A stretch of DNA of 64,000 nt from Malus domestica (lineage: Eukaryota; Streptophyta; Magnoliopsida; Rosales; Rosaceae): contig NC_091673.1 in NCBI RefSeq assembly GCF_042453785.1, positions 7,151,001-7,215,000 on the forward strand, written 5' to 3'. Numbering within the stretch: position 1 is the stretch's first letter; each line of letters begins with the position of its first letter. A model generated the notes under the pieces. The model did no database searches. It was not told the DNA's origin and saw nothing but the letters and a program-made list of their open reading frames with translations. The translations under genes and the position numbers were made by a program. Shown here piece by piece: positions 34,078 through 61,250 of the stretch.

Positions 34078-34860
34078 GAGCAAGGTTTTGTGTTGAAGCT
34101 TTGTAGGTGAAGCTTTGGTGTTGAAGCTTTCTAGGTGAAGCTTTGATGGTGAAGCTTTGTAGATGAAGCTTTGTAGATGAAGCTTTCTAGGTGAAGCTTT
34201 GATGGTGAAGCTTTGATGGTGAAAGTATGTAGAGGGAGCTTTCTAGGTGAAGCTTTTTTAGGTGAAGCTGTGTAGGTGAAGCTTTTTTAAGTGAAGCTTT
34301 TTGGGTGAAGCTTTGTGGGTGAAGCTTTTTAGGTGAAGCTTTGTGGGTGAAGCTTTTTTAGGTGAAGCTGTTTGGGTGAAGCTTTTTGGAGGTGAAGTTT
34401 TTTTTTTTTTGGGTGAAGCTTTTTTAGGTGAAGCTTTTTGGGTGAAACTTTTTGGATGAAGCTTTGATGGTGAAGCTTTGTAGATGAAGCTTTGTAGATG
34501 AAGCTTTCTAGGTGAAGCTTTGATGGTGAAGCTTTGATGGTGAAAGTATGTAGAGGGAGCTTTCTAGGTGAAGCTTTTTTAGGTGAAGCTGTGTAGGTGA
34601 AGCTTTTTTAAGTGAAGCTTTTCGGGTGAAGTTTTTTGGGTGAAGCTTTGTGGGTGAAGCTTTTTAGGTGAAGCTTTGTGGGTGAAGCTTTTTTAGGTGA
34701 AGCTGTTTGGGTGAAGCTTTTTGGAGGTGAAGTTTTTTTTTTTTTTTGGGTGAAGCTTTTTTAGGTGAAGCTTTTTGGGTGAAACTTTTTGGATGAAGCT
34801 TTTTGGGTGAAGTTTTGGAGGTGAAGCTTTTCGGGTGAAGCTTTTTGGATGAAGCTGTTT
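34078..34860. repeat. AAGCTT-rich tandem array with a 320-bp higher-order duplication
   Basis: Units of about 12-16 bp, GGTGAAGCTTT with small variations, run for nearly 800 bp. A larger block beginning GATGGTGAAGCTTTGTAG at 34145 repeats at 34465, including its poly-T interruption. A related array with the opposite strand reading occurs in the second LTR element at 56490-56670. Confidence 0.9.
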
Positions 34861-36221
34861 GGAAAGTCGAGGTCTTCTCATTTAGGTGAGTCTGGCTTCC
34901 ACCTCCCACTTGTTGATAAAGGATGGTTGTAGGGGGTTTCTCCTGATATGTCTTTGCTTCGGCGGAGGCATGGTTATAAGCCTGCGCCATCACCTCAGAG
35001 TAAGTCTTCCAAGTATTGGCATTGATCATGTATTTAAAGAAACAATCACGTAGGCCTGCCGTGAAGGCTTTGAGGGCAGTCTTGTCGTCTGCCTCGGCAC
35101 ACCGGGAGTATTCATGGCTGAAGCGGCCAGCATACATACGTAATGACTCGTCTGGCTTCTGGCGGATAGTGTACAGGTCATCAATTTAGAGCTCCACCAG
35201 AGAGGGTGGAGGGGAAGAGAAGACATCGCTCTTCGTCGGTGTGCATCCGGTATGCCATGGTGGACTCAAAGAGGTTAAGGTGCTCAATCGAGTCCTCTTT
35301 CCCAGTATAAAGTTGCAAGCCAAGCTTCTGCTTTGTCTTTGCTTGAAGGGGGGTGTTGAGGATCCTCCTTGTAAGAGGGCCAGGCCTGGGTTGGTTCCAG
35401 TCAGGTATTTCAGCCTGACGTTCAGCCTTCAACTTGTTTACTTCCTCAAGAAGTTGTAGGACAAGGGGGTCCTGAGCGGAGTTATGTGCCACTGGAGCTT
35501 TCTTTCGTAAATCTCCATCTCCTCTTGGAATTAGGAAGGTTTGATCAAGGGCATGTGATTTTTCCCTGGACTCGCTGTACTGGCTTCCAGGGTATGTCTG
35601 TCGGAACACCTCTGAGTCCCATGTACCCTCATGTCTCTCTAGGACTTGTTGCCCCTTCCCCAAGTTGGTGGCCGGCTCGGGCCGTGGCAGGGGACCGAGT
35701 CTCTCAGAAATCCTTGGGTCATTGATCTTTGAGCTTATATGGATGGAATTCTCTCGACGTTGCTTCAGGAAATCCCGACAATCGCGAAAGACGGCTTTCG
35801 ATCCTTCTGCCCCTTCAGCAAAGAGGTGTCTCCCTCCGCTTCTCATGGTTCGGGTCGAAGCAACTGGGTTAAGAGAAGCCTCATGTTGATTATCAAGTCG
35901 AGGGGTAATCTGTTCCCTATCAGGGATATCTATGTCGAATGCATGTGACCCTCCATGTTGGAGGGCACCCAGTTGATGGTTGACTTCCACGGGGGCAACA
36001 AGCTCGCGTGTCTGAGCTTGCCTAGCTTCGTGGAGTGTCTCGAAGAGCTTCTCATATTGCTCCTGGAGGACCTCATTCCTCATTGCTATCTTGTTGTTCT
36101 GAGCTTCCAACTCATCGACTTTAGCTTGAAGAAGAACTCGTTTTCCTTCCTTCTTTCGTTGTTTCGCACTATGTGCAAGGGGGGTGTCATTCTGTGTGCT
36201 GTGGCTTCCTTCGCTTCCCAT
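34664..36221 (-). pseudogene. gag: gag remnant of the 7.9-kb element
   Basis: ATG at 36221 opens a frame of 346 residues. An N-terminal coiled coil (ELEAQNNKIAMRNEVLQEQY) leads to the start of a retrotransposon gag domain (KTKQKLGLQLYTGKEDSIEH) and stops at GGALN (35181). Gag homology resumes in another frame with DDLYTIRQKPDESL, then MYAGRFSHEYSRCAEADD and AYNHASAEAKTYQ. The join between GGALN and DDLYTIRQ lacks a middle section, so an internal deletion with frameshift is likely. The frame then runs into repeats reading (K)LHPKSFT/QKASPK. No zinc knuckle or protease follows. Confidence 0.8.
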
Positions 36222-59503: not shown

Positions 59504-59735
59504 AAAAATTATCGCACAACGCATAAACTACAATATATTTGTTTTCTAAATTATAATGGTTGGCTGAAGAAGTTTTGTTTAATATATATTCAACGATAAA
59601 TTATCCTTTGATGCATTTTACCTTTCCACTTCAAGTTCTTTGATTTGGTTCCGGTTGATTCGTAAGAAAACTTATGTCTTGATCAGTACTTCTGATTGAG
59701 AACTTAATCTGCTCACAGGCTTCATGAGTCGAGAG

Positions 59736-60891
59736 CAAGGAAGAAAATATCGGTAATATCGGTAGTCCGAAAACACGGAAATATCGGAATAATATCGATA
59801 TCGATAAAAATTATATGGAAACCACGGAAATTGTAAGAAAAACTTGGAAATTTTTATTGAAACTTTGCAGGATATTTATTTAGTTAATTATCTATTCATT
59901 TATCACAAAAAATTGGAAGGAAATGCATTGCATGATGGATTTAACATTATCAAGTTGATTATATAGCGAGCTGACAAACATTGTGAGTGTAGAAAATATG
60001 TAGTAATTAATGAAAGAAGTCTAAACACACCATAATCATTTATATATAAAGAAGAAAAAGGACAAAGATCACCTGGATTCGAACTAAAAACCTGGTGCTA
60101 TTGAAGAGAAACACGGCCCAACACGTCCAAGTTCACACTTGTGTCAAAGTGCAGCGACAACTACAATATATGCTGATGCAGCAGCTTCCTGTTTGAATTG
60201 AAAAACCCTAGCAGCTGCTACATCTTTTGCCCTTGCCTCGAGCCCAGAGCCTCAAAAGGCTCTCTATCTCTCCGTAGCAGATCATCCCTTTCAACAGACA
60301 AGGCTGGCCACATGCCATGCATCCATGTAGTGAATTTCTTAGGATTCTAAATCAAAGGCTAAAATAAATCCCAATTTGCCCATCTCTCTCTAGAAAATCT
60401 GAAAAGGCTTTTAATCTCTCCATTGTTTCTCAGTTTCGCACCCCTTTTCAACCAAGAGCCAAGCAACATAGATACCATGTGGCTCTACCTCAAATCGGTC
60501 ATCCCCATCAGCGCTCTCTACTTCCTTTCCCTCTGCTCCTCCCTCGCCTTCCTCCTCGTTGAGCCCGTCACCATGTCCCGCGACCTCTACCTCTCCTCCG
60601 TCGTCCCCATCGGCGCTCTCTACTCCCTCTCCCTCTGGCTCTCCAACTCCGCCTACATCTTCCTCTTCGTCTCCTTCATCCAGATGCTCAAGGCCCTCAT
60701 GCTCGTCGCCGTCTACTCCATCGGCGTCGCCTTCAAGCAATGTCGCGATAATATCGCTAATATCGCAATATTATCGATATTATCTCGATATTTTGACGAA
60801 AACCTATCGGATATGTGTAGAAATATCGGACTCCCCAAAAAACGATAATATCGGCGAAATATCGCCGATATTATCGATTTTTTATACCTTG
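59736..60891 (+). mobile_element. Non-autonomous hAT-type transposon carrying a translocator gene fragment
   Basis: The ends are CAAGGAAGAAAATATCGG and, inverted, CAAGGTATAAAAAATCGAT, flanked by a perfect 8-bp duplication GTCGAGAG (59728-59735, 60892-60899), the hAT hallmark. Both subterminal regions are dense in AATATCG / CGATATT words. No transposase is present. The interior contains leader-like DNA and part of a sugar-phosphate translocator gene. Confidence 0.9.
60478..60738 (+). pseudogene. Captured sugar-phosphate / nucleotide-sugar translocator fragment
   Basis: From ATG at 60478 the frame reads [20 protein letters not shown], then [38 protein letters not shown] and [20 protein letters not shown]. 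This is the TM2-TM4 part of plant TPT/NST-family transporters (At4g32390-type: FVEPVKMTRETYLRSVVPIG, from memory). Compared with that family, residues are missing between LAFL and VEP, and an extra [11 protein letters not shown] segment duplicates the later [11 protein letters not shown]. It runs open into element DNA (ending GLPKKR), so a chimeric frame of about 123 codons exists. It lacks most transmembrane helices and cannot transport; any expression is unknown. Confidence 0.85.
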
Positions 60892-60984
60892 GTCGAGAGA
60901 TCATTCTTTAATCATTGAAGAATGTATGAATTTATTTAACAAAAAATAAAATAAGGACTCTAATACTAATTATACCGAGGCTTT

Positions 60985-61250
60985 GTAATGCGAATGAGGA
61001 TCCTCTTCAGATCCTCATATCATGTCCGTTCATCGTATATCGTGTGGTCAGAAATTATTTTAAATTAAATATGAATAGTAGCTGACAAAAATTGGCCGCA
61101 CGATATACAATGAACGGATACGATTTGAGGATCCCAGATCTTCGGGATGATGATCCACAGATCTTTTGTAATAATCGTACGATGTATGATGAATGGAAAC
61201 GATTCACAGATCTTCGGGATCCTCAAAAAGAGGATCAGGTGATGATCGAG
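60985..61250. mobile_element. Hairpin MITE with GAGGATC ends
   Basis: GTCCGTTCATCGTATATCGT near 61023 and ACGATATACAATGAACGGA near 61099 are inverted. Further GAGGATCCT / AGGATC..GATCC words lie outward. Non-coding; ends approximate. Confidence 0.6.

Follow-up and report, generated by a model that had tools for sequence, protein, structure and literature searches.

A non-autonomous hAT element in apple with a translocator gene fragment that resembles a mosaic of two paralog types

We find that a 1,156-bp transposon in the genome of apple (Malus domestica) is very probably a non-autonomous Pack-hAT (transduplication) element, a shortened representative of a hAT family in apple in which the longer elements contain pieces of transposase together with a translocator gene fragment beside the right end. 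What appears to be new here is the composition of that fragment, which reads as a patchwork drawn from two types of paralogous gene: the duplicated capture of one bears a patch of the other. The element lies in a stretch of 64,000 nucleotides (the window; C13:7151001-7215000 of the 651-Mb, 19-contig assembly used for own-genome searches), and its features in window coordinates are as follows.

59728..59735, no strand: left target-site duplication, GTCGAGAG, present as a single copy in the C16 empty site
59736..60891, + strand: non-autonomous hAT element, 1,156 bp, CAAGG...CCTTG, transposase absent from its open reading frames
59736..60053, + strand: hAT family left end (318 bp), with at least 31 other own-genome matches at 92-96%, a lower bound among the best 40 of 2880 candidates scored
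60048..60450, + strand: stretch common to LTR retroelement interiors, 89-90% to L005-L008
60451..60482, + strand: 32-bp filler that contains an ATG, with no genomic match among the best 40 of 2880 candidates scored
60477..60848, + strand: open fusion frame, 123 aa plus stop, ATG at 60477, last 35 codons in transposon DNA
60483..60535, + strand: unit A, truncated, donor residues 84-101, C2-gene-like in relatives
60536..60740, + strand: unit B, translocator fragment, apparent mosaic of two donor types
60563..60639, + strand: patch of C8/C15-gene type at 9/9 diagnostic sites, the next site (60661) being C2-type
60741..60891, + strand: hAT right end with subterminal repeats, its first 35 codons within the fusion frame
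60892..60899, no strand: right target-site duplication, GTCGAGAG

A first-pass annotation, made from the letters of the window, had proposed a hAT-type insertion with CAAGG ends and a perfect 8-bp target duplication and had pointed to an empty site as the observation that would decide the matter; this proposal is borne out on each count. The element starts with CAAGG at 59736 and ends with CCTTG at 60891, with a perfect copy of GTCGAGAG on either side, and 23 of the 27 bases of its terminal inverted repeats pair (hand count). The terminal inverted repeat consensus of hAT elements is YARNG, and the short CAAGG/CCTTG repeats found here are of the hAT type. Of the window's 231 CAAGG/CCTTG pairs with a spacing of 100-4000 bp, this element alone has a perfect 8-bp flank match, and 200 first-order Markov sequences analyzed as a control gave one such match in total. 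The joined flanks of the element align across the junction to C16:7281306-7281404 (81% over 102 columns), where the target is present as a single copy, GTCCGGAG. Because this counterpart locus is an empty site with one target copy, the 8-bp duplication is genuine and a coincidental repeat is ruled out: the insertion of 59736-60891 duplicated 8 bp of target, and the corresponding C16 site is empty. Apple chromosomes 13 and 16 are homeologous, with which the location of the empty-site match agrees. No further copy of the element was found inside the window at E 1e-3, Rfam gave no match to the element at the gathering score, and no relative was confirmed among viral contigs (1/8 scans).

The left end identifies a family. 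For nine further members both ends were inspected, and the 8-bp duplication is perfect in six, matches at 7/8 in one and is unclear in two. The related copies with the same capture that the first-pass annotation had suggested looking for do exist: the translocator fragment and the right end are also found together in four close copies on C14 (1,839 bp), C4 (5,401 bp), C6 (3,909 bp) and C15 (7,840 bp; length and duplication read by hand from the start motif). Target duplications are perfect in the C4 and C6 copies and match at 7/8 in those on C14 and C15, so that, with the window, 3/5 capture copies have perfect duplications and 2/5 have 7/8, and the five loci carry five differing duplications. 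The captured DNA has therefore moved along with the element, as the same fragment and right end occur elsewhere with duplications of their own, and the capture is a trait of the family and not private to the window copy. Pieces of the C4 copy searched separately against Pfam gave DUF659 in one and Dimer_Tnp_hAT in another, both above cut-off, and DUF659 below cut-off in a third; the single piece of the C15 copy that was examined also gave DUF659 (Pfam). Since close copies bear hAT transposase domains and 8-bp duplications, and an empty site is present, we assign the element to the hAT superfamily. On the domain pieces read, the capture would belong to a family with transposase genes of its own, of which the window copy is a putative shortened derivative. 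Two side observations concern relatives. In L063 (C7:1448689 region) the translocator fragment and right end abut, head-on, a left end with about 1.4 kb of a long element in the opposite orientation, either as two adjacent elements or by an inversion, and the interiors of the longer copies L031-L034 hold an AT-rich tandem array with units of roughly 35-130 bp whose length varies among copies.

The interior 5' of the translocator part has a different relationship. Where two longer copies (5.4 and 7.8 kb) have hAT-transposase domain pieces, the window copy has about 400 bp of DNA shared with retroelements: 60048-60450 matches at least four loci at 89-90% identity among the best 40 of 2880 candidates scored. 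Such a match is flanked by 1,457-bp direct repeats that are 97.5% identical in L036 and by 775-bp direct repeats at 96% in L037. Of the retroelement-type relatives, L035 has a protease domain and L038 a gag domain, and the one piece of L037 examined gave no domain; we read L035-L038 as probable LTR retroelements. Between contigs, L036 and L037 share more than 5 kb at 94-95% identity. The retroelement-like match begins inside the left-end match, with 6 bp (AAAGAA) belonging to both. We considered whether 60048-60450 might be the 5' flank of a donor gene and found no match in the 1.5-kb flanks of the four donor-type genes described below. The filler that follows has the same junction in protein P0026 (from a 515-base ENA contig), and because of this the arrangement is not confined to the present assembly.

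The source of the cargo is a set of intronless sugar-phosphate/phosphate translocator genes of the TPT/NST family, as the first-pass annotation had supposed. The fragment matches the C8 gene in three blocks, at residues 84-101, 59-69 and 67-134 (effectively 76-134). Four close donor-type genes are uninterrupted over 343-349 residues, on C8, C15, C2 and again on C15. We call type 1 the genes C8:13985603 (99% to P0083, an apple protein) and C15:9031806 (96% to P0083), and type 2 the genes C2:2618914 (81%) and C15:13514871 (80%). Over 203 nt, unit B shares 94% identity with the C15 and C8 genes. Genome-wide there are about 43 fragment loci, confined to donor residues 45-152 at 52% identity or more; the number is a hand count from 101 matches that leaves out those extending outside residues 45-152 and distant paralogs. 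In the 18 of these loci whose structure was read, the hAT right end stands immediately 3' of the fragment in 14 and is partial in one (L070); none was seen in the remaining three (L069 with L073, L071, L072), in stretches of only 700-1,400 bp. Two units are present in 10/18 loci (unit A being partial in the window and in L063), three partial units in L069, and a single unit in L064, L066-L068 and L070-L072. The three partial units of L069 (C8:20390300-20391100) are in tandem, more than in the window, and include C8-type sequence (93% over 82 nt). We also note that P0006, a plant translocator fragment on a 280-base contig, is recorded as an Escherichia coli protein and looks like a contaminated record.

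To characterize the fragment further, we typed its units at 14 sites that separate type 1 (C8/C15) from type 2 (C2). Unit B of the older copies L052, L053, L059 and L063 is type 2 at 11-12 of 13 scored sites, and L070-L072 are 90-92% identical to the type-2 gene versus 82-84% to type 1. Unit B of the window and C4 copies is type 1 at 9/9 sites over residues 76-102 (60563-60639) and type 2 at residues 109 and 132, which gives a patch of at least 77 bp between the outer type-1 sites. The C15 copy is type 1 at 7/7 scored tract sites; in those on C14, C6 and C12 the tract contains a single type-2 site, residue 77, next to a short insertion, and the C12 copy is of neither type at residue 132. Over the part that they cover, L064 and L066-L068 show one type-2 site, and they are C2-type at 109 and, where scored, at 132. 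In unit A, the five young copies are type 2 at 5-6 sites of residues 76-87 and type 1 at residue 97 (5/5); unit A of the window is too short for the donor-type table. The left boundary of the patch comes from unit A of relatives and from residue 62 (hand read), and the right boundary from two type-2 sites. We conclude from these assignments that the family holds DNA of two donor gene types, the C2 type as single and as two units and the C8/C15 type as a patch within unit B of the younger copies. The strength of the mosaic is the concordance across diagnostic sites and not the runs test, which gave P = 0.037 for the window and 0.036-0.54 for other copies. A tree of whole units places the young unit B on a separate branch, nested in neither donor type, as expected of a mosaic, though the tree alone is no proof of two donors. 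The donor-type combination of the window was found in 0 of the 125 plant proteins scored (of 178 long ones, the other 53 did not fit the residue pattern).

The typing also bears on the structure of the fragment. The first-pass annotation had described an internal duplication and a deletion. The duplication is present (82% over 60 nt) and donor residues 70-75 are missing, but the two-unit structure is not private to the window copy, and the apparent deletion of 18 bp is better described as a donor-type junction. It is located at the change from type 2 to type 1, at a CTCGTC motif that occurs twice in the gene, and residues 70-75 are retained in four older copies; a plain 18-bp deletion is replaced by this reading. 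At the duplication junction, TCCCTCTG at residues 99-101 is joined to a similar motif at residues 59-61.

We then asked what can be made of the open frame, which does run, as claimed, across the duplication into transposon DNA. That it should be a new gene, transcribed, translated and under selection, is highly improbable. The donor part is CT-rich (119 C and 73 T in 258 bases), so open frames come cheaply: single changes create a stop in 22/774 cases, 60483-60740 is free of stops in frames +1 and +2 and in one reverse frame, and 403 of 1000 dinucleotide shuffles of this part hold an equally long frame in one of six frames. The openness that had seemed remarkable is therefore ordinary for the donor part; for longer stretches, the frame exceeds most shuffles (equalled in 26/1000 for 60474-60845 and in 8/1000 for 60363-60845), which favors the first-pass annotation, yet the comparison is to random DNA and not to decaying coding DNA. 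Retention of the same frame in the C4 copy also speaks for a gene, but from unit A into the tail it is broken in 3/5 close copies (C14, C15 and C6). Among 28 substitutions from the majority, counted with one 27-nt indel-affected block left out, 21 are C>T or G>A and 14 are synonymous versus 11.8 expected given this spectrum (P = 0.24), and the chance of no stop among them is 0.38; the substitutions look neutral, and selection on the frame is not supported. Pooled pairwise pN/pS over the five copies is 0.45 (one misaligned C15 block included), a figure that alone hints at constraint; although it points the other way, the C-to-T bias can account for it. The nearest proteins that share this chimera come from Malus domestica, where annotations name related copies hypothetical proteins, and P0001 among these has the same tail; however, annotation is not expression, and in P0042 and P0049 the tail is translated in a different frame. 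The fusion frame gave nothing useful when searched against Pfam and PDB sequences. The earlier suggestion that the frame points to a functional chimera is thus unsupported, and it resembles decaying baggage more than a new gene.

Two other explanations concern the cargo. The repeated fragments might give rise to small RNAs targeting the four translocator genes, as could be imagined from about 43 fragment loci that derive from the same gene region, from the methylation-like mutation spectrum and from the regulatory role proposed for transduplicated sequence in the part of PMC2528002 available to us. We consider such regulatory cargo unlikely, though less so than a new gene; the four donor-type genes are intact. 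The mosaic itself could have arisen by recombination between two elements with independent captures of different paralogs, rather than by patching from a host gene. This is a serious contender, if somewhat short of an even chance: many fragment copies are possible partners, and the 18 loci read are a part of the roughly 43. Against it, a pure C8/C15-type copy was not seen among those 18 loci, and L064 and L066-L068 are likewise C2-type at the sites beyond the tract (109 and, if scored, 132).

For the shortened Pack-hAT element that we favor, the history may be reconstructed as follows. A C2-type capture would have come first and the C8/C15-type patch later, with the cargo acquired and rewritten in repair. 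Template switching at short homologies during element repair could have made the junctions, both that of the duplication and that of the apparent deletion. The window copy would have been cut and pasted in trans by transposase from longer relatives, and its 123-aa frame, to judge from the mutation spectrum, would lack a selected function and be decaying under DNA methylation. We tentatively propose, as something quite possible that we would stop short of calling probable, that the captured host piece serves as a homology landing pad, at which the element is later repatched from the matching position of a living paralog; capture would then be repeated and homology-directed, and the cargo continually rewritten.

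Pack-hAT elements of the Pack-TYPE group are known in maize and rice (Gisby and Catoni 2022, PMC8903248). The window element is like them in being a non-autonomous hAT with an 8-bp duplication, terminal inverted repeats, captured coding DNA and multiple copies, and it has host gene DNA between its termini, an intact donor elsewhere and mobility with its cargo (five loci); the accessible part of that paper concerns maize and rice and mentions neither apple nor second-paralog patches. hAT transduplication is also described for the Hatvine-6 family in grapevine (PMC2528002), which likewise has shared ends and transposase with a variable interior that includes genic sequence. In what is available of that report, individual copies often have interiors found in no other copy, whereas in the apple family one gene region recurs, duplicated and patched. 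Animal Pack-TIRs, including Pack-hAT-N8_XT of the frog, resemble our case in hAT-amplified host sequence, distinct duplications and microhomology at junctions, but the frog case, as given in the text at hand, is a single 291-bp UTR piece in three copies (PMC8277862); microhomology template-switch models for Pack-TIRs are published in the same work. Oryza MULE-derived genes share cargo from more than one parental sequence, but belong to the MULE superfamily, and the portion of PMC4858842 that we could draw on does not describe a paralog patch at the same gene position. We found no report of translocator capture by a hAT element in apple, or of this hAT family, among titles and abstract starts in open-licence PMC. 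The element is therefore of the already known Pack-hAT type, and the second-paralog-type patch is the part worth following. How DNA transposons take up gene pieces is unsettled, and a 2026 review allows, in the part accessible, for an undiscovered mechanism for unlinked genes (PMC13317346).

The family shows apparent stages of capture within one genome, from single-unit C2-type to two-unit C2-type copies, then the second-paralog patch, and then a shortened form with retroelement-like DNA. This makes for an unusually readable capture history, in which four intact close genes render breakpoints legible within a few bases. It also holds a warning for annotators: the apple "hypothetical proteins" P0001, P0042 and P0049 bear the tail of this transposon. 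Lastly, we note two further repeats in the window. A 41-bp inverted repeat at 61010-61133 (85% complementary, with a 42-bp spacer) has a MITE-like look, and an array of about 55 copies of a 14-bp unit at 34086-34861 overlaps a long reverse frame in which KLHPKSFT-like residues recur.
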